Shown one piece after another: positions 11,853 to 22,085 of a stretch of 22,797 nucleotides of DNA. The translations under genes were made by a program, and so were the position numbers. This DNA is from a virus, in the IMG/VR virus record IMGVR_UViG_3300031243_000014, positions 1-22,797 of that record; one strand, 5' to 3'. Position 1 is the first letter of the stretch. Each line of letters begins with the position of its first letter. The notes below the pieces were generated by a model. The model made no database searches and was not told where the DNA came from. It saw only the letters and a list, made by a program, of their open reading frames with translations.

Positions 11853-12506
11853 ATGTCAGGTTACAAAGAGTGGAGTATCGGCGAAGTTGTAGAAGCTGGT
11901 GACTTTCAGACATACATTCAAAACCAAACCGTAATGAAGTTTGCTGACGCGGCAGGCAGAACCTCAGAACTTGGCGACAGCGTATCCGAGGGGATGCTGA
12001 GCTACCTCGTATCTACCGAGACTTTTCAGTACTACACTGGCGCAGTCTGGGAGAACATCTCAAACCCCGGTGACATAACCGCAGTAACCGCTGGAACCGC
12101 ACTAACAGGTGGCGGAACTACTGGCGACGTAACTCTAAATGTGGATCTAAGCGCGGTAACAATCCCTGCCTCACAGATAAGCGACCTAACAGCCACAGCA
12201 GCCGAACTAAACATCTTGGACGGCGTGACCGCAACAAGCGCAGAGCTGAACATCCTTGACGGTGTAACGGCAGACGCAACAGAGCTAAATCTTCTTGACG
12301 GGGTAACCGCAACTACCGCAGAACTAAACTATGTAGATGGCGTGACCTCGGCAGTACAGACACAACTAGACGCTAGGGTACTAGAAACAAACGGCGCAGT
12401 AACAACAGCCGCAACCGGTTCTAACGTGGTTAGGAACATCACGCTTTCAACCTCAGCACCGTCAAGCGGTTTGGACGGCGATGTCTGGTTAGTGTACGAG
12501 GCTTAG
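11853..12506 (+). CDS. Tail fibre protein with 13-residue ELN-LDGVT repeats (adhesin module 1)
   Basis: A 217-residue protein with AGGAATAAG before the ATG. The first 65 residues (YKEWSIGEVVEAGDFQTYIQ, then a SEGMLSYLVST strand) form a head domain shared with the product at 13928-14461. The middle has ITAVTAGTALTGGGTTGDVTLNVD, a fibre shaft pattern. Then four copies of a 13-residue repeat, ELN-x-x-DGVT plus four residues, run from residue 118 to about 165, of the type found in trimeric fibre shafts of many aquatic phages. The C-terminal part ends with SAPSSGLDGDVWLVYEA, a common phage fibre end. It abuts the next gene (stop TAG, then ATG). Confidence 0.82.
   Translation: MSGYKEWSIGEVVEAGDFQTYIQNQTVMKFADAAGRTSELGDSVSEGMLSYLVSTETFQYYTGAVWENISNPGDITAVTAGTALTGGGTTGDVTLNVDLSAVTIPASQISDLTATAAELNILDGVTATSAELNILDGVTADATELNLLDGVTATTAELNYVDGVTSAVQTQLDARVLETNGAVTTAATGSNVVRNITLSTSAPSSGLDGDVWLVYEA
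12204..12350 (+). repeat. Four tandem 39-bp repeats coding the fibre shaft
   Basis: Repeat units start at 12204, 12243, 12282 and 12321 and each codes ELN, two hydrophobic residues and DGVT plus a variable Ala/Thr linker. Third codon positions differ between copies, so this is protein-level rather than recent DNA-level duplication. Confidence 0.85.
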
Positions 12507-13502
12507 ATGACGGCGCACACAAAAATCGGTGGCGCTTGGAAAGATGTCGCTACAATACACGCAAAAGTTGGCGGCACTTGGAAAGAGATTACAGAAGGCC
12601 ATACTAAAATTGGTGGCGCTTGGAAGCAGTTCTACTCAAGCGGCACTGCTGGTCTAACAGTTGATTACCTTGTTATCGCTGGTGGTGGTGGTGGCGGAAC
12701 ACTTGGCGGTGGCGGTGGTGCAGGTGGCTACCGTACAAGCGCAGGTACTTCAGGTCGTGGAGCAAGTGCGGAATCAGCTTTGACTTTAGCTGCCTCGACA
12801 AATTACACCGTAACCGTTGGTGGTGGGGGCGCTGGCGCACTTGGACATAGCTATCCTGGAAGTGGGCCTAGAGGCTCGCAGGGCGTAAATTCAGTATTCG
12901 ACACAATTACAAGTATTGGTGGTGGGGCTGGTGGGTCTTGGGCAAATAATACAGGAACAAGTGGCGGTGCAGGTGGCGGTGACGGAGGAAGCATACAAGC
13001 TGGTGCGAGACTAGCAGGTACTTCTGGGCAAGGATACGATGGTGGACTACACACTGGTAGCGATTTTCCTGGTGCTGGTGGCGGTGGAGCTGGAGCGCAA
13101 GGTGGTGACACTTCAGGGACTACGGCTGGAAACGGTGGAAATGGTGTTGCTTCGTCTATTACGGGAACATCAGTAACTCGTGGCGGCGGTGGCGGCGGAG
13201 GTAACTGGGACTCAAGAGGCCCTGCTGGTACTGGTGGTTCCGGCGGTGGCGGTAACGGAGCAGATAACGCTTCAACACCAGGTTCGGCAGGCGTTGTAAA
13301 TACTGGTTCGGGTGGTGGGTCAGGTGGATTTGACTTTAACTTTCCGGCTGGGGGCGCTGGTGGTTCAGGAATCGTAATTATCAAATACCCAGACAGCTAC
13401 ACGCTAACAATCGGCGGCGGGTTAACTAGCTCAACTGCAACCTCGGGCGGATTCAAGGTAACAACATTCACCGCTGGCACAGACAACATTAGTTTCGCTT
13501 AG
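12507..13502 (+). CDS. Glycine-rich tail adhesin (module 1)
   Basis: A 331-residue protein. Residues 4-45 hold three 14-residue repeats, H(T/A)K(I/V)GG(A/T)WK plus six residues, units starting at bases 12516, 12558 and 12600. After LTVDYLVIAGGGGGG begins a long domain of glycine runs (GGGGAGGYRT, GGGGAGAQGG, GGGGGGGNW, GGSGGGGNGADN) that ends in SGIVIIKYPDSY and a short strand-rich cap. Polyglycine-rich domains of this kind form stacked polyglycine-II helices in receptor-binding adhesins such as the T-even gp38 group, and DYLVIAGGGGGG starts are common in aquatic phages. I infer receptor binding at the tail tip. The reverse strand shows a proline-rich frame that is only the shadow of these glycine codons. 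Confidence 0.8.
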   Translation: MTAHTKIGGAWKDVATIHAKVGGTWKEITEGHTKIGGAWKQFYSSGTAGLTVDYLVIAGGGGGGTLGGGGGAGGYRTSAGTSGRGASAESALTLAASTNYTVTVGGGGAGALGHSYPGSGPRGSQGVNSVFDTITSIGGGAGGSWANNTGTSGGAGGGDGGSIQAGARLAGTSGQGYDGGLHTGSDFPGAGGGGAGAQGGDTSGTTAGNGGNGVASSITGTSVTRGGGGGGGNWDSRGPAGTGGSGGGGNGADNASTPGSAGVVNTGSGGGSGGFDFNFPAGGAGGSGIVIIKYPDSYTLTIGGGLTSSTATSGGFKVTTFTAGTDNISFA

Positions 13503-13927: not shown

Positions 13928-14461
13928 ATGGCAGGTCTAGGAAGAAAAGTATTCGCCGCAGGTGAAGTGCTAACAGCAGCTAACGTGCAAGGCTATCTAC
14001 AAGACCAAGTGATTCAGGTCTATGACGATGCTTCAGACCGCACGACAGTTCTCGGAGCGGCAGTCACCGAGGGCATGGTTACATACCTAAAAGATGTAAA
14101 CACAGTGCAGGTCTACGACGGCACATCTTGGAAAGTCGTTACTTCTGACCCTACGCTCACATCTTCAGCGGCAAGCACTTACACAATTCAGGACACTGAC
14201 GCTGACCAGTATCTACAGTTCACGTCTGCGGCAACAATTACTATAAATGTCGCTACAGCTTTTTCAACCGCACAACAACTTGCTATCTTTGCAGACGGTG
14301 CTTCGCTAACTATTGAGGGTGACGGAACTGTAGTCCTATCTGGCGACGGTGTATCTGGTACAGGTGAGTCATTTACGGCTAACGGACAATACTCACTCAT
14401 TGGCATAATCTGCCTTGGCACTAACTCTTACAGGGTCACTGGAAACGTTACGGCAGCATAA
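13928..14461 (+). CDS. Tail fibre protein (adhesin module 2)
   Basis: A 177-residue protein whose first 75 residues (GRKVFAAGEVLTAANVQGYLQ, QVIQVYDDASDRTTVLGAAV, EGMVTYLKDVNTVQVYDG) match the head domain of the fibre at 11853-12506 in layout and several positions, so both probably dock to the same tail site. The rest is strand-rich, with TYTIQDTDADQYLQFTSAAT and ATAFSTAQQLAIFADGASLTIEGDGTVV, a pattern of single-layer beta domains in phage fibres. It lacks the ELN-LDGVT shaft. The stop overlaps the ATG of the glycine-rich gene (TAATG). Confidence 0.78.
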   Translation: MAGLGRKVFAAGEVLTAANVQGYLQDQVIQVYDDASDRTTVLGAAVTEGMVTYLKDVNTVQVYDGTSWKVVTSDPTLTSSAASTYTIQDTDADQYLQFTSAATITINVATAFSTAQQLAIFADGASLTIEGDGTVVLSGDGVSGTGESFTANGQYSLIGIICLGTNSYRVTGNVTAA

Positions 14462-15285
14462 TGGGATTCTTACCACTCGCACTACTTGCATCTACCGTTG
14501 TAAACAAATCTGGGCAGCAGGCTTTTACTTCGGCAGGCTCGCACACTTTCACAGTTCCTTTTGGGGTGACTTCTATCTCAGTAGTGTGTGTTGGCGGAGG
14601 GGCAGCAGGCACTCAAGACAACGGTACTGGAGGCGGCGGAGCTTTATCTTATGGTAATAACATCAGCGTCAACGGTGGCCAAGAAATTTTGTTGTTTGTA
14701 GGTAGTGGCGGAGTTCCTGCAAGTCGAAACGGTAGCGCAAGCTGGTTTAGCTCTGCTGGCTTTTTACAAGCGGGTGGCGGGAACGGCGGTTATACCTACA
14801 ATGGTGGCTCTGGTGGTTCTGGAAGCGGTACTGCTAGGTCTGGCGGTGGCTCTGGTGGCCCCGGTGCAAGCAACGCAAACAGATATGACTATATGGGTGG
14901 CGGTGGAGCTGGTGGTTACTCAGGGGCAGGCGGTGGAGGCAGAAATGCCTACCTTAGCATTGGTGGGTATCCAGGTACTGGCGGTGGCGGTGGCGGTGGC
15001 GGTACACTTTCTGGTGGCGGTGGTGTTGGCTTACTTGGTGAAGGTGCTAACGGCTCGGCGGGTACAGGAAACGATAACAGTCCCGGTGGCGGTGGCTCTG
15101 GTGGAAGTTCAGGAAGTGGTGGCAATTTTACGACTCCCGGTCCGGGTGGAGCTTACGGCGGAGCTGGCGGCGGCGGTGCAACTGGTTCTGCAAGCAATAA
15201 CGGCAGTGACGGAGCTGGCGGAGCGGTCAGAATAATCTGGGGCCGAGGTAGAGCCTTCCCATCCACAAACACAGGGAATGTATAA
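14461..15285 (+). CDS. Glycine-rich tail adhesin (module 2)
   Basis: A 274-residue protein, second glycine-rich adhesin of the window. An N-terminal segment of about 30 residues is followed by strand-forming HTFTVPFGVTSISVVCVGGG, then long glycine/serine tracts (GGGGALSYG, GGGGAGGYSGAGGGG, GGGGGGGGTLSGGGG) and the closing GGAVRIIWGRGRAFPSTNTGN, an end known from glycine-rich fibre proteins of aquatic phages. It is paired with its own fibre gene, as in module 1, but has no KIGG-WK repeats. I infer receptor binding. A frame shifted by one (14705-15235) is a Val/Ala-rich shadow, not a gene. Confidence 0.78.
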   Translation: MGFLPLALLASTVVNKSGQQAFTSAGSHTFTVPFGVTSISVVCVGGGAAGTQDNGTGGGGALSYGNNISVNGGQEILLFVGSGGVPASRNGSASWFSSAGFLQAGGGNGGYTYNGGSGGSGSGTARSGGGSGGPGASNANRYDYMGGGGAGGYSGAGGGGRNAYLSIGGYPGTGGGGGGGGTLSGGGGVGLLGEGANGSAGTGNDNSPGGGGSGGSSGSGGNFTTPGPGGAYGGAGGGGATGSASNNGSDGAGGAVRIIWGRGRAFPSTNTGNV

Positions 15286-16447: not shown

Positions 16448-16625
16448 TTTAGAATTCTGGCAGTTTGCCGGAGAACGTGCAATAAAGACCTTTGCTCAGG
16501 CAGGCGTCGCTTTCTTAGGCGGCGGAACTGTAGGTCTGTTTAGTGTTGACTGGGTAGGCTTCTTCAGCATTGCCGCTGGCTCTGCCTTGCTGTCAATACT
16601 TACCTCAATTATTACAAAGAAGTAG
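16434..16625 (+). CDS. r1t-type holin
   Basis: A 63-residue protein from ATG 16434 (or 61 from ATG 16440), overlapping the previous gene in another frame. It reads EFWQFAGERAIKTFAQAGVAFLGGG, then GLFSVDWVGFFSIAAGSALLSILTSIITKK, which matches the actinophage r1t-like holin pattern: F-W--AGERA-KTFAQ, one helix, a VDW turn, a second helix ending LTS. Holins open the cytoplasmic membrane to release the peptidase. The gene ends the rightward late region, and its last 14 bases overlap the 3' end of a convergent WhiB gene. Confidence 0.88.
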   Translation: MEMFSLEFWQFAGERAIKTFAQAGVAFLGGGTVGLFSVDWVGFFSIAAGSALLSILTSIITKK

Positions 16626-16884
16626 CGCTTAGCTTTTTTCTCATTCGGTTGCGCTCTCTTGTGTTCACGCCACCCCAGATACCGTGCTGCTCGTTATTTA
16701 TTAGTGCAAACTCCAAGCAGAGCATCTGTACCGGGCAGTGACCACAAAGCTTTGCAGCAGCGCTTCTTACGCCACCGTTGGCACCTTCTGGGAACCATGC
16801 GTCTGGGTCTGATTCCTGACACGCTGGTGCGCCTGTTTCTTTTATGCCGTCGGCTAGGGCTGTGTGCGCTTGTTCTGAGTTCAT
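16612..16884 (-). CDS. WhiB-family iron-sulfur transcription factor, full length
   Basis: A 90-residue protein with the four Cys ligands of the WhiB [4Fe-4S] cluster: Cys22, Cys47, Cys50 and Cys56 (C-x24-C-x2-C-x5-C). DPDAWFPE, typical of the family, precedes the pair. GIWGG (about residues 68-72) and a basic end, RERNRMRKK, complete the family layout. WhiB proteins bind the primary sigma factor and redirect transcription. Phage copies (for example in phage TM4) can interfere with host WhiB proteins and block septation or superinfection. The promoter candidate ends 6 bases before the ATG and no ribosome site is visible, suggesting a leaderless mRNA. It converges with the holin gene. Confidence 0.93.
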   Translation of the reverse strand: MNSEQAHTALADGIKETGAPACQESDPDAWFPEGANGGVRSAAAKLCGHCPVQMLCLEFALINNEQHGIWGGVNTRERNRMRKKLSATSL

Positions 16885-17085: not shown

Positions 17086-17343
17086 CTATCTTTCGTCTGC
17101 CGATGTGCCGCCCCACACGCCGTGCCTCTGGTCAGTCTCGACAGCAAACTCAAAGCACTCGTTGATAATCGGGCATGAATGACACAAAGCCTTTGCAGCC
17201 TTAGTTGCTGCGGCTCGCAATTCAGTCGTGTCTAAATCTTCCGGAAAGAACAAAGCCGGAACTCTTTCGCAAGGAACGCCACCTTCTTGGTGAATGCTTG
17301 ATAACAGTTTAATATACCTACTTGTAATCTGTCCGTTGCTCAT
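17086..17343 (-). CDS. Second WhiB-family protein, short C terminus
   Basis: An 85-residue protein from ATG 17343 with ligands Cys25, Cys54, Cys57 and Cys63 (C-x28-C-x2-C-x5-C) and the GVWGG turn at residues 75-79. It ends only six residues later (TSADER, TAG, then another stop in frame). The basic tail that follows the turn in DNA-contacting WhiB proteins, present in the neighbour as RERNRMRKK, is therefore missing. The N terminus differs fully from the other copy, so the two are not a recent duplication. It could bind the sigma factor without normal DNA contact. The frame is open further upstream to 17619, but that would overlap the exonuclease gene and the WhiB homology begins at 17343. 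Confidence 0.9.
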   Translation of the reverse strand: MSNGQITSRYIKLLSSIHQEGGVPCERVPALFFPEDLDTTELRAAATKAAKALCHSCPIINECFEFAVETDQRHGVWGGTSADER

Positions 17344-17353
17344 AGTAATCTTC

Positions 17354-17362
17354 ACAATACCA
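17354..17362 (-). promoter_or_regulatory. Extended -10 candidate of the second WhiB gene
   Basis: On the minus strand TGGTATTGT fits TGN-TANNNT and ends 10 bases before the ATG, giving an expected leader of only about 3-5 bases. No clear -35 or ribosome site is present. Confidence 0.45.
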
Positions 17363-17378
17363 ACAAAAGGAGATAAAT

Positions 17379-18257
17379 ATGGAATTGTACGCACCGGAAA
17401 CGCTGAACGGAGCAAAGCTACTTGGCATATACCCTCCGGGAAGCCCTGAGTGGCACGCTGCGCGGTCTTTAGGCATCGGGGGTAGTGAAGTAGGCACCAT
17501 ACTAGGTTTGAACCCGTGGGAGAGCGCCTACGCCTTGTGGGCAAAGAAGCTAAACCTAATACCGTCAGAGATAAAAGAGAACTGGGCAATTCGGTTCGGT
17601 AAAGCTTTTGAAGCGCCAATCCTTATGCTCTGGGCCGAGGAATACCCGGAGTGGGAAGTCTTTGAGACTGGCACATACGAAGATGAGCATTGCTCTTACC
17701 GACGCGCTAACCCTGACGCGATTGCTAAGCACCGGGTAACTGGCGAGCTAATGGTTATTGAAGTCAAGACCGCTAGGACAACTTGGGATGATGTGCCTAG
17801 GGCTTACTTAGCTCAGGTGCAGCACTACATGGGAGTTACAAAGATAAAGAAGGGCATCATCGTTGCAGTTGCAGGAATGACTTGGAACGAATACGACGTG
17901 CCTTACAACCAAGACATAATAGACGTGCAGAACACTGCCCTTGAGCGATTCTGGAATTCAGTCAAGACTGAGACAAAGCCTAACTGGGATGGCTCAGAAG
18001 CCACTTACAACGCTGTCAGATACATGAACCCTGACCTTGAGGGCGTAGAAGTCGAGCTAGGACCTCTTGGCGAAGAACTCTATCGCGCTCAGATAGCAGC
18101 CGACGAGGGTTACAAGTACCTAATGTTGCTCAAATCAAGGACCTTAGATACTATGGGTTCTGCAAAGTGGGGAGTGGTAAACACTGTCCGGGTAGCATCA
18201 CGACAACTCAGAGCCGGGTCCCCGTCTTTGATAGTAAACAAGAAAGCAAACTTATGA
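17379..18257 (+). CDS. YqaJ-type recombination exonuclease
   Basis: A 292-residue protein of the YqaJ/lambda-exonuclease fold, which degrades one strand of duplex ends to expose single strands for annealing. Seen motifs are GIGGSEVGTILGLNPWESAYALW (residues 32-54), the FGKAFEAPI helix with Glu78, the active-site Asp113 in RRANPDA, the Glu128-x-Lys130 pair in VIEVKTAR, and the AYLAQVQHYMGV helix. AAAGGAG lies 7 bases before the ATG. It starts the rightward early operon and its stop overlaps the next start (ATGA). An ERF-like annealing protein is coded one gene later, which completes a phage exonuclease-annealase pair. Confidence 0.93.
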   Translation: MELYAPETLNGAKLLGIYPPGSPEWHAARSLGIGGSEVGTILGLNPWESAYALWAKKLNLIPSEIKENWAIRFGKAFEAPILMLWAEEYPEWEVFETGTYEDEHCSYRRANPDAIAKHRVTGELMVIEVKTARTTWDDVPRAYLAQVQHYMGVTKIKKGIIVAVAGMTWNEYDVPYNQDIIDVQNTALERFWNSVKTETKPNWDGSEATYNAVRYMNPDLEGVEVELGPLGEELYRAQIAADEGYKYLMLLKSRTLDTMGSAKWGVVNTVRVASRQLRAGSPSLIVNKKANL

Positions 18258-18478
18258 GTGAAGAAAGAGAATCAGAGCCTCTAGAGATAGGGCTTGGCAG
18301 CTACGTGGGACTCCGTAAAGGAGACACGTTAATTACCGGACTGATAAACGGCATGAAGCTGGCAGACGGAATCCTAGAGCGCATCTCGCTTGAAGAAATA
18401 GACCTGTGGTTCTACATGGACGCAGGTTGGGGATTTATAAAAACCGACGAAGAAACAGAGGATGAAGATGAAGTTTGA
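18254..18478 (+). CDS. Acidic 74-residue protein, unknown function
   Basis: Read from ATG 18254, which overlaps the exonuclease stop as ATGA. The product is strongly acidic at both ends (SEERESEPLE; TDEETEDEDEV) with a hydrophobic centre (YVGLRKGDTLITGLINGMK, then LEEIDLWFYMDAGWGFI). No Cys, no membrane helix and no family that I recognise. Its position between exonuclease and annealing protein suggests a small accessory of recombination or a DNA-mimic-like regulator (speculation based on charge only). A longer upstream frame to 18167 overlaps the exonuclease and is unlikely. Confidence 0.7.
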   Translation: MSEERESEPLEIGLGSYVGLRKGDTLITGLINGMKLADGILERISLEEIDLWFYMDAGWGFIKTDEETEDEDEV

Positions 18479-19094
18479 TTTAAGCAAGTACAGCACAGTC
18501 GCAGAAAGACTGGCTAAGTTTCACGCAGACCACGAAGATGGGCGAATCGTCACCCAGTGGATAAACGCAAACGAGTATGATTCTTGGGACGCAAAAGACC
18601 CTAACGTAAAGCGAATCTGGGTTATCAAGACGTCTCTGTACCTAACTGCTGGCGACCAAGCCAACAACCTACCTAAAGCCACTGGACACGCATTTGAAAT
18701 AGACGGTGGACCGGGTGCAAACCAGACCTCCGCCATGGAAAACTCAGAATCGTCAAGTCTTGGGCGAGCGCTAATGGTGATGGGTTACAGCATGAATAAA
18801 GACTTAAACACCTTGGCATCTAGGGAAGAAATGGAAAAGGTGCAGCGTGGAGTGGGCAGTGTCAAAACATTCACAGACTACCCTAAGCCAAGTTTAAGAG
18901 ACTATGAAGCAGAGGCATCTAAACTTACAGATGTAGACGGATTACGCTGGCTATACGCTCAAGCAAAGGGCGAAGGCGCGACTACCGATGTATTAGAGAG
19001 GCTGGCTGAACGTGCAAAATCTTTCAGTGCTGAAGGCGAAGATTCGGGAAACCGAGGAAGCGTATCACCTAGCAAGAAAGCTGGGGCGGCATGA
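18468..19094 (+). CDS. ERF-like single-strand annealing protein
   Basis: A 208-residue protein from ATG 18468, which has GAGG 6 bases upstream; ATG 18462, in frame, would add two residues but touches the GAGG. It starts KFDLSKYSTVAERLAKFHADH, continues through IWVIKTSLYLTAGDQANNLPKATGHAFE, and carries AMENSESSSLGRALMVMGY (about residues 86-104), close to the N-E-T-S-A-x-G-R-A-L-x-x-x-G-Y box of ERF-type recombinases. Such proteins pair complementary single strands made by an exonuclease, here the YqaJ-type enzyme coded upstream. The C-terminal third is charged and variable. ERF membership is inferred from the box and context. Confidence 0.72.
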   Translation: MKFDLSKYSTVAERLAKFHADHEDGRIVTQWINANEYDSWDAKDPNVKRIWVIKTSLYLTAGDQANNLPKATGHAFEIDGGPGANQTSAMENSESSSLGRALMVMGYSMNKDLNTLASREEMEKVQRGVGSVKTFTDYPKPSLRDYEAEASKLTDVDGLRWLYAQAKGEGATTDVLERLAERAKSFSAEGEDSGNRGSVSPSKKAGAA

Positions 19095-19818: not shown

Positions 19819-20544
19819 ATGAGCATTTCAGCCTTGGCACTGTCGCTTTACCACTCAAAGTCAACATACTCTAACCGACTGGTGCTAATTGCGATTGCCA
19901 ACTTCGAGGGCGAAGAAGGAGCGTGGCCAGCTATCGAAACTATTGGCAGGCTTGCAGGCGGCATAAACAGGAGAACAGTCCAGCGCTCAATAGACGCTTT
20001 GATGGAGCTAGGCGAACTGACTGAAGAACGCAGAGAGGGTATTACCAACAGATACAGGATTACACTTACCTGTCCTGACGATTGCGATAGAAGCTCTCAG
20101 CACCGCAAAAAGAAGGGGGGTGGTGTGGAGACCACCCGTGTACAAATACTACAGGGGGGGATGGCATCTGCGACACAGGGGGGTGGTGTACAGACCACGG
20201 GGGGGGTGGTGTCCAGACCACCCGAACCATTAGATAACCATCAAAGAACCATTACTAGAACCGTCAGGGCAACAAGGTTGCCGGATGAATGGGAACCCAA
20301 TGACAAGTTGATGGCTATGTTTGTGACTAAATGGCCGGACGTAGATACTCGGCTACAAACAGAAAACTTCTGCCTTCATTGGAGGTCTAACGGAAAGCCG
20401 ATGAAGAACTGGGACCTTGCGTTTCAGAAGTGGATGAACACGGAGCAAGAGAGAGCTAAGCGTTTTGCCAGAACTCGTAACGACAGAGAACATCAAAAAA
20501 TGGAACAACAACGAATAATGAAGGAGTGGGGAAATGAATCTTAA
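19819..20544 (+). CDS. Winged-helix replication initiator with iterons in its gene
   Basis: A 241-residue protein with AAAGGAACC before the ATG. The N-terminal 85 residues form a winged helix: SALALSLYHSKSTYSNRLVLIAIAN, then PAIETIGRLAGGINRRTVQRSIDALMELGELTEE and NRYRITL, the layout of phage replication proteins of the helix-turn-helix/DnaD type. Residues 95-150 are a Lys/Gly/Thr-rich linker (KKKGGGVETT, GGGVQTTGGVV) coded by DNA repeats. The C-terminal domain (about 155-241) has RLPDEWEPNDKLMAMF and FCLHWRSNGKPMKNWDLAFQKWM, typical of initiators that load helicase at the origin. By analogy with lambda O, the linker DNA may be the binding site. Its end overlaps the next gene by 11 bases. Confidence 0.85.
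   Translation: MSISALALSLYHSKSTYSNRLVLIAIANFEGEEGAWPAIETIGRLAGGINRRTVQRSIDALMELGELTEERREGITNRYRITLTCPDDCDRSSQHRKKKGGGVETTRVQILQGGMASATQGGGVQTTGGVVSRPPEPLDNHQRTITRTVRATRLPDEWEPNDKLMAMFVTKWPDVDTRLQTENFCLHWRSNGKPMKNWDLAFQKWMNTEQERAKRFARTRNDREHQKMEQQRIMKEWGNES
20115..20223 (+). repeat. Iteron-like repeats, candidate replication origin
   Basis: Three copies of an 18-bp near-palindrome, GGTGGTGT-NN-AGACCACC, lie at 20119-20136, 20182-20199 (last base G) and 20205-20222. Each is preceded by a run of four or more further G. A fourth G-run with ATGGC (20154-20165) looks like a decayed half copy. They code residues 101-135 of the initiator. The CCATTAGATAACCATC stretch just after is more AT-rich. Confidence 0.7.
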
Positions 20545-20980
20545 TGAGACAAAGATGCTGCTGAAGGAAATAGCAGTCCTTGACAACAGAAGGCTTGATG
20601 AGGCTATGGCTGCTGCTTGGCAGTCAGTTATCGGGCATCTAGACTTTGACACAGCTAGGGCTGCGCTTATACTCGCAAGGCAAGATGCAACTATCAACTA
20701 CCTAGAGCCTCGTCACATTGTCTCTTGGGCTAAGGAAGCTAGGCATCGAGCAACTAAGAACGTCAACGACGAGCCAACACCAACTAACGTCGCACCTGAG
20801 CCAATCTGTATTCACCAAATAAAAGTCATGTCGTGTACAGACTGTTGCAGAGCCTTAGCGGAGAAAGCAGACGAGTGGCGGATGTTTGAATCACCCTGCA
20901 AGGACAACGATTTTACGGACTTTATGTTCAAATCGCAAAAAGAACTACACACATGGGCTAAGAAAAACGTCTATAGTTGA
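20534..20980 (+). CDS. Replication-region protein with zinc-ribbon-like tail (possible helicase loader)
   Basis: A 148-residue protein with AAGGAG 8 bases before the ATG, overlapping the initiator gene. The N-terminal 75 residues are helical: TKMLLKEIAVLDNRRLDEAMAAAWQSVIGHLDFDTARAALI, then YLEPRHIVSWAKEA, a pattern seen in proteins coded right after the initiator in actinobacterial phages and prophages. Next comes CIHQIKVMSCTDCC (about residues 92-105), a Cys-x-His then Cys-x2-Cys set that could hold zinc. The lambda order O-P (initiator, then helicase loader) suggests a loader-like role, but that is inference; no ATPase motif is present. The C terminus is charged. Confidence 0.65.
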   Translation: MNLNETKMLLKEIAVLDNRRLDEAMAAAWQSVIGHLDFDTARAALILARQDATINYLEPRHIVSWAKEARHRATKNVNDEPTPTNVAPEPICIHQIKVMSCTDCCRALAEKADEWRMFESPCKDNDFTDFMFKSQKELHTWAKKNVYS

Positions 20981-20983
20981 AGT

Positions 20984-21247
20984 GTGTTTGAATTCGTTGA
21001 CTGTCATCGCTGCGGTTATACCTTTGAGGTAAATCGCAAAAGAAGAAAGTTGCGAATGCTTTGTCAGAGTTGTAGAGTAACAAAAGCAACAACAATAAGA
21101 ACAGAAGATAAGGCTTGCTTGCCTTGGCACGGTAACTTCGGAGTAGATTTAGTTACACCGATTGACGACGAGGGACACCCTGTACACCACGGCATCAGGA
21201 CTTGTGGTAACAACGATTGTGTGCAGACGGCACACATAGAAGGGTAA
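20984..21247 (+). CDS. Cys-rich zinc-binding protein, HNH-like end
   Basis: An 87-residue protein from GTG 20984, three bases after the previous stop, without a clear ribosome site. The first third is a zinc ribbon: CHRCGYTFEV then CQSCRV (two Cys-x2-Cys pairs around a Lys/Arg-rich loop). The rest has ACLPWHGNFGVDL and ends RTCGNNDCVQTAHIEG, which resembles the C-x4-C-x4-H zinc site at the end of phage HNH proteins (C-N--CVNP-HL). The central catalytic His-Asn core of an HNH nuclease is not obvious. It may bind DNA or RNA. Function unknown. Confidence 0.65.
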   Translation: MFEFVDCHRCGYTFEVNRKRRKLRMLCQSCRVTKATTIRTEDKACLPWHGNFGVDLVTPIDDEGHPVHHGIRTCGNNDCVQTAHIEG

Positions 21248-21530: not shown

Positions 21531-21676
21531 TGGTTAAGTTTGTGGGGCTGTTCACTGCAATGCTGCTTGTGTTACTTGGCACACAGGCAGAACCTATCAC
21601 TGGCACCATCGCCTTTGTGTGGGCAGCCCTACATCTCATTGCTGTCTACAGGGATTGGTATGTCAATCAAGATTGA
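21530..21676 (+). CDS. Small membrane protein overlapping the RusA gene
   Basis: A 48-residue frame from ATG 21530, which overlaps the preceding stop (TGATG). Residues 2-19 (KFVGLFTAMLLVLLG) and 24-40 (ITGTIAFVWAALHLIAVY) are two membrane helices, with AEP between them and a charged RDWYVNQD end. Its last 17 bases overlap the RusA start in another frame. The coupled start, balanced helices and end motif (RDW) make a real gene likely. Function unknown. Confidence 0.65.
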   Translation: MVKFVGLFTAMLLVLLGTQAEPITGTIAFVWAALHLIAVYRDWYVNQD

Positions 21677-22085
21677 GGTATTTGGCAATCCGGCACCACA
21701 AGGCTCCAAAGCTGTCTATCACGGCAGAGTAGTAGAACAATCAGCCAAGACTCTAAAACCGTGGCGCAAGGCAATCGCAGATGCCTGTCACGAATGGGTA
21801 ACAGATGACCACATATTCCTGTTAGGCCCAGTGCAAGTAGAAATAGATTTTTATCTAGCTCGCCCGGCTTCGGTCAAACTGACTAAGCGGGCTTTTCCTA
21901 TAGTGCCACCAGACATTGACAAGCTATGCCGCAGCACCCTTGACGGCATTTCTCAGGGACTCAACGGCAAGGTCGGTAACGGACTTATCTGGGGCGACGA
22001 TGCTCTAGTTGTTGTGCTGATAGCCCGCAAGTATTACGCGGATGACCGACTGCCCGGCGCTGACATTACGATTAGCGCTTTATAA
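21660..22085 (+). CDS. rusA: RusA-type Holliday junction resolvase
   Basis: A 141-residue protein from ATG 21660, with AGGG about 5 bases upstream. It follows the RusA plan: SIKIEVFGNPAPQGSKAVYH (P-x-P-x-x-K-type start), a WRKAIADAC helix, PVQVEIDFYLARP strand, PPDIDKLCRSTLDGISQ (acidic residues of the metal site and conserved Lys) and GLIWGDDALVVVLIARKYYAD. RusA dimers cut four-way junctions formed during recombination and replication and clear branches before packaging, fitting the exonuclease and annealing genes upstream. The frame extends upstream to 21540, but that part belongs to the overlapping membrane protein gene in another frame. Confidence 0.9.
   Translation: MSIKIEVFGNPAPQGSKAVYHGRVVEQSAKTLKPWRKAIADACHEWVTDDHIFLLGPVQVEIDFYLARPASVKLTKRAFPIVPPDIDKLCRSTLDGISQGLNGKVGNGLIWGDDALVVVLIARKYYADDRLPGADITISAL

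Follow-up and report, generated by a model that had tools for sequence, protein, structure and literature searches.

The locus raises the question of where the phage begins to replicate, because short repeats are clustered inside the gene for its presumed replication initiator. The window, meaning the whole analysed stretch of viral DNA, is 22,797 nt long. Origins formed by iterons within the initiator gene are known from phages lambda and SPP1; to our knowledge, the origins of most sequenced phages, above all those of actinophages, are unmapped. The first-pass annotation had read the repeats as a lambda-like origin bound by the initiator itself. From the sequence comparisons described here, positions 20119-20265, in the stretch coding for the predicted disordered linker of the initiator, very probably constitute the phage replication origin, which would operate by the mechanism proposed below. 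The coordinates of the features are collected in Table 1.

Table 1. Features of the putative in-gene origin and its surroundings (window coordinates).
Feature	Position	Strand	Description	Basis
Replication initiator gene	19819..20544	+	241 aa; winged helix, disordered linker (predicted) and DnaT-like C-terminal domain	
N-terminal winged-helix coding part	19819..20094	+	Putative iteron binder	AlphaFold model; Foldseek
Iteron 1	20119..20136	+	GGTGGTGTGGAGACCACC	Motif search, shuffles
Decayed iteron copy	~20159..20176	+	Slot of fourth iteron, 23 bp before iteron 2	By eye
Iteron 2	20182..20199	+	GGTGGTGTACAGACCACG	Motif search, shuffles
Iteron 3	20205..20222	+	GGTGGTGTCCAGACCACC; codon phase unlike copies 1 and 2	Motif search, shuffles
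Phased AACC[A/G]T[C/T] array	20225..20265	+	Putative unwinding or strand-capture element	Pattern counts, shuffles, scans
DnaT-like C-terminal domain coding part	20275..20454	+	Residues 153-212; putative contact to loader or helicase	Pfam DnaT
Next gene	20534..20980	+	148 aa; overlaps initiator stop; candidate helicase loader	Conserved beside initiators

The initiator product matched phrog_8540 (replication initiation O-like, E=1.5e-20) and phrog_1032 (E=3.8e-17), and the PHROG families matched carried the descriptions 'replication initiation O-like' and 'replication initiation protein'. Searched alone against Pfam, the protein gave HTH_36 (2.5e-5; 24.4 bits against a cut-off of 25) and DnaT (5e-4), both just below the curated cut-off; family-wide, HTH_36 was found in 22 of 23 members and DnaT in 13 of 23. 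Judged by these matches, the protein can be placed among the HTH_36 phage replication initiators of the O-like PHROGs. An AlphaFold model computed with 21 sequences comprised a winged helix to approximately residue 92, a linker predicted to be disordered (pLDDT below 50 in residues 93-148), and helices from residue 162. All iteron copies fall in the stretch coding for this linker, and linker and repeat region coincide exactly. Foldseek searches with the winged helix returned many winged-helix structures at a probability of ~1.0 and E-values of ~0.01-0.03, including 4pt7 ('Structure of initiator').

The iterons are 18-bp near-palindromes that were recovered with the motif GGTGGTGTNNAGACCACC (0, 1 and 0 mismatches in iterons 1, 2 and 3, respectively), and no further site was detected at up to 3 mismatches anywhere in the 22,797-nt window. 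Counted on both strands, the three sites yielded six matches where 0.07 were expected, and the largest value in 100 dinucleotide shuffles was 2. The slot of the decayed copy is occupied by a better, intact-like copy in the relatives L029 and L024. Motif search, shuffles and the AlphaFold model confirmed the three near-palindromes and the decayed copy that the first-pass annotation had placed inside the initiator linker. Its description of an encoded GGGV-TT repeat was correct for iterons 1 and 2 (GGVETTRV and GGVQTTGG, both in codon phase 0) but not for iteron 3, which encodes a different peptide, GVVSRPPE, because it lies in codon phase 2. This frame difference and the further repeat array that follows iteron 3 are additions to the earlier description.

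Comparison with relatives located the conservation in the DNA. Relative to L034, which is 77% identical to the window protein over residues 1-143, third codon positions were 82% identical in the origin and 45% identical in the winged-helix part (Fisher p=4e-5), as anticipated by the earlier proposal that the repeats are kept at the DNA level in related phages, silent positions included. The iteron arms are unaltered in very close relatives: in L023, 0 of 48 arm bases were changed as against 3 of 6 centre bases, and one of the central changes replaces Ser by Trp. Sliding DNA identity to L034 and L024 reached its maximum, 0.89-0.91, across the iterons and the first part of the array, and thus in the linker, not in the folded domain. 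In L024-L033, outer bases were altered on both arms together (GGCGGTG..ACCGCC) with the palindrome preserved, and L034 is an intermediate in which one arm is altered. A difference in iteron 3 of L030 was present only beside the contig end, after a frame change, and was treated as an assembly edge instead of a real change.

A profile scan of IMG/VR gave 458 stretches with a relative of the initiator, of which 80 were kept, and 54 non-redundant relative genes were compared, those of isolated Arthrobacter and Curtobacterium phages included. The relatives are largely metagenomic contigs, and many share ancestry. Most of the 54 carry 2-5 repeats of their own in this linker, and the repeat sequences differ widely; the copies sit in different frames in many relatives, and synonymous (peptide-preserving) codon shuffles seldom reproduced the repeats. 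Repeats missed by the automatic count were visible by eye in L086, L088, L090 and L096, and no clear iterons were found in L083, L094 and L097 among the 54 genes. Centre spacings in the palindromic families are typically 19/24/23 bp, and the annotated lambda iterons, starting at 39034, 39054, 39078 and 39101, are spaced 20/24/23. Iteron sequence thus appears to turn over across the relatives while the geometry stays. Since the repeats are kept as DNA and the relatives hold linker repeats at nearly fixed spacing, the lambda-like in-gene origin is well supported, also by the lambda spacing. The GC-skew curve had no switch at 20.1 kb and was uninformative, the window being a genome fragment. For the relative Curtobacterium phage Root, whose 15,138-bp genome is complete, the cumulative skew minimum was located at 14,434, inside the initiator gene; no weight was given to this, because the curve declines nearly monotonically.

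Immediately downstream of iteron 3 lies GAACCATTAGATAACCATCAAAGAACCATTACTAGAACCGTCA, in which array copies start at 20225, 20236, 20247 and 20259, in steps of 11, 11 and 12 bp and in codon phases 1, 0, 2 and 2. AACC pairs 9-13 bp apart were found in 50 of 58 genes (peptide-preserving shuffles: mean 22, maximum 30), and the 11-bp step was observed 49 times in these genes as against 12.7 +/- 2.7 in peptide-preserving shuffles. In the window, 11.5 bp separate the last palindrome's centre from the start of the array, and the same distance from the last iteron centre to the first AACC was scored for 26 of 29 palindromic genes. Two of the exceptions, L050 and L051, also gave 11.5 bp when re-read by eye, and the third, Arielagos, seems to hold a further degenerate iteron. 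This register partly reflects descent, because many relatives share ancestry. It was rejected as a rule for all initiators with an AACC array, as it is confined to the family of the window; the families found by the scans described below have mainly direct-repeat iterons and registers other than 11.5 bp. Across the family, the GC content of the array segment was on average 16 points below that of its own gene and was lower in 96% of cases, and its coding strand has half the G; in the window, the array and the sequence onward have 41% GC, compared with 50% for the gene. An AACC array of this kind was not described in the open-access literature searched, and its fixed register in the window's family and its wide occurrence seem to be new as far as that literature shows.

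The iterons and the array appear to be inherited with the N-terminal domain. The initiator of L035 aligned with residues 1-143 of the window protein at 77% identity and with nothing beyond, its C-domain resembling that of Arthrobacter phage RedFox; that of L008 aligned with residues 149-215 at 67% and with nothing before. Both comparisons place the join where the AACC array ends on its 3' side, from which it follows that the winged helix is transferred along with its iterons and array, and that the C-domain is swapped. For the evolution of initiator specificity, winged helix, iterons and array may be regarded as one cassette set against exchangeable C-domains. The initiators of L008 and L012, which have the same C-domain and another N-domain, contain A-rich repeats (AAGAAGAACAAGTT and AGAATACAAAGTTT) with a 15-16 bp period in the place of the array. 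These are possibly another type of unwinding element, and their occurrence with another N-domain suggests that the type of array goes with the N-domain.

AACC arrays elsewhere were located by a gene-independent scan of IMG/VR for three AACCRTY copies at an 11-bp period, which matched at least 119 stretches. Among the matches listed, 73 were situated in a long ORF at residue 70-260, and an iteron array was detected automatically upstream in 54 of these 73. The in-ORF matches listed form 53 distinct clusters, of whose representatives 39 match HTH_36 and approximately 40 match PHROG replication-initiation families. A strict 11-bp period was discarded, as arrays of 10 and 12 bp were also found in iteron-bearing initiators: a period of 10 matched 65 stretches, 26 of them in-ORF with iterons, and a period of 12 matched at least 120 (27 in-ORF with iterons among the matches listed). 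The scan counts, some of them lower bounds, are not to be taken as rates. The controls gave 17 stretches at period 16, with 1 in-ORF with iterons, and 23 stretches for the scrambled pattern ACACRTY at period 11, with 0 in-ORF with iterons. Arrays of different period encode different peptides (EPSLNHQGTVNEP, NHQEPSLTIKEPS, EPSLEPSLEPS), so the common factor is the DNA and not the peptide. A four-copy pattern scanned against a genome collection gave 103 matches, mostly unrelated repeats, with only 4 clear initiators. Three Achromobacter genomes were among these, so that the matches include proteobacterial elements, and a similar array was present in the initiator gene of a Pseudomonas phage, where neighbouring genes are annotated as a DnaC-like loader and a DnaB-like helicase. 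AACC arrays were also found in other initiator-like ORFs with no iterons detectable upstream (L126, L130, L158, L225), which indicates that the array can occur independently of winged helices that bind iterons. We suggest tentatively, and with somewhat less than even confidence, that arrays of AACC[A/G]T[C/T] repeating once per helical turn are an origin component found generally in phage initiator genes, across initiators and host phyla that are otherwise unrelated; that their sequence is recognised, most likely in the unwound single strand, either by the initiator or by a conserved helicase-loading partner; and that linker peptides of the EPSLNHQ/TINEPS type are their coding shadow. Arrays of AACC[A/G]T[C/T] outside long ORFs, such as the GGTTGCCAAACCAT-type tandem repeats (L145, L153, L182, L198 and similar), are unrelated to initiators or non-coding.

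Other explanations of the repeats were weighed against the in-gene origin. One possibility is that the sites are operators by which the winged-helix protein represses its own operon or sets its timing, with the origin elsewhere; the near-palindromic form of sites inside its gene would suit this, as would the many repressors among its Foldseek matches. Little probability was assigned to this explanation, because the sites are ~300 bp inside the gene and not at a promoter, their number, spacing and adjoining low-GC array fit origins rather than operators, and the protein matches replication-initiator families. The palindromes could also fold in RNA, and the 3' end of the array is indeed where the domain swaps have their breakpoints, so that mRNA hairpins or a recombination hot spot for swapping initiator modules might be considered. 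Both are highly improbable: Rfam gave no match for the repeats as an RNA element, different sequences at equal spacing fit a protein-DNA geometry better than hairpins, and the wholly different repeats of the relatives offer no shared homology for recombination.

The remaining alternative, that the repeats are kept for the protein as a flexible Gly/Thr- and EPS/NHQ-rich linker expanding by slippage, agrees with the disorder predicted by AlphaFold and with the repetitive encoded peptide. It is scarcely credible, however, as the copies lie in different frames and encode different peptides, silent sites are the most conserved, AACC at 10-, 11- and 12-bp periods encodes different peptides in other initiators, and the signal is lost in peptide-preserving shuffles. 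The same evidence upholds the earlier suggestion that the peptide repeat is a by-product of selection on the DNA, and it offers a DNA-level explanation for low-complexity linker peptides.

For the in-gene origin, a mechanism can be proposed by analogy with characterised systems. The lambda O protein, when bound to the iterons within its gene, opens an A+T-rich region of 40 bp next to them (PMC5043065); in SPP1, gp38 binds the oriL repeats within gene 38, and the DUE is AT-rich (PMC6316719); in RK2, TrfA binds the iterons and, sequence-specifically, one DUE strand at once (PMC4081077). In the window, the N-terminal winged helix would bind three to four iterons, approximately two helical turns apart, as dimers on the 18-bp near-palindromes, and the iteron-bound initiators would build an O-some-like complex. 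Strain from this complex would open the adjoining AACC[A/G]T[C/T] array, which is rich in A and C and phased with the helix. The initiator or a partner would hold one of its two strands, and the DnaT-like C-terminal domain would bring in the helicase, possibly via the product of the next gene. Which protein reads AACC is a testable question raised by this scheme.

The window resembles lambda gene O and ori-lambda in that iterons, likewise 18-bp near-palindromes (spacings of 20/24/23 in lambda and 19/24/23 in the window's relatives), lie inside the initiator gene between a DNA-binding N-domain and a C-domain, with a low-GC segment directly downstream and a next gene that overlaps the initiator stop. 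It differs in the iteron sequence, in the DnaT-like C-domain, in the AACC array, which is absent from the A+T-rich stretch of lambda, and in a next gene that is only a candidate loader. Of the characteristics of a lambda-type origin, three were found: the near-palindromic sites between N- and C-domain, the DNA-level conservation and the adjacent low-GC segment. Bacillus phage SPP1 (gene 38 and oriL, gp39 loader, gp40 helicase), likened from its published description, has origin repeats within the gene of the origin-binding protein and the same gene order, initiator then loader, the latter a candidate in the window, where the next gene is without a match to gp39. The initiator seems to have less in common with lambda O itself than with the SPP1-type arrangement or with a separate lineage of O-like proteins. 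The 13-mer DUE repeats of RK2 are also short repeats beside iterons, approximately one per turn, whereas the window motif is AACC[A/G]T[C/T] with a 10-13 bp period and lies inside a coding region. Initiators of the HTH_36 type from Arthrobacter and Curtobacterium phages (Decurrovirus and relatives, 15 kb genomes) share a homologous N-domain and carry, in the corresponding position, an AACC array and palindromic iterons of their own, but their iteron sequences and C-domain differ from those of the window. They are annotated only as HTH DNA-binding or hypothetical proteins, apart from one RefSeq record (Decurro, 'replication initiation O-like'). The probable in-gene origin of the window is a further case of the known lambda/SPP1 arrangement, and the AACC array is, as far as the open-access literature shows, a new part. 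The resulting rule (iteron spacings of 19/24/23 bp, 11.5 bp between the centre of the final iteron and the first AACC, and further AACC copies every ~11 bp) makes origins predictable from sequence inside genes annotated merely as helix-turn-helix proteins.

The next gene is of a type also found beside the initiators of seven relatives (L037, L066, L075, L080, L091, L092 and L095); in L038, L042 and L044 the next gene reads by eye as a DnaB-type helicase. Its product gave no match to a Pfam loader family, no PDB sequence match and no Foldseek match at E <= 0.001, gp39 (1NO1) being unmatched by sequence or fold. The gene may play the lambda P-like loader role that the first-pass annotation had suggested. 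The putative loader gene is adjoined by 20984-21247 (+), which encodes a small protein with zinc-ribbon-like cysteines (weak Pfam matches), and similar proteins follow the initiators in L024, L026, L034, L041, L049 and L077.

The initiator is flanked by a YqaJ/RecE-type exonuclease (17379-18257), a protein of the uncharacterised PHROG family phrog_11717 (18462-19094) and a RusA resolvase (21663-22085), and the same recombination-replication cluster surrounds the initiators of Arthrobacter phages Galaxy and RedFox. Two short WhiB-like frames with the motif C...CGHCPV...C...GIWGG were noted by eye in the ORF list at 16612-16884 (-) and ~17086-17400 (-), and would point to an actinobacterial host. 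Further upstream, 11853-12506 (+) encodes repeated 12-residue ELNILDGVTAT units and is followed by two very glycine-rich proteins (12507-13502 and 14461-15285); the three are likely tail-tip or adhesin parts.
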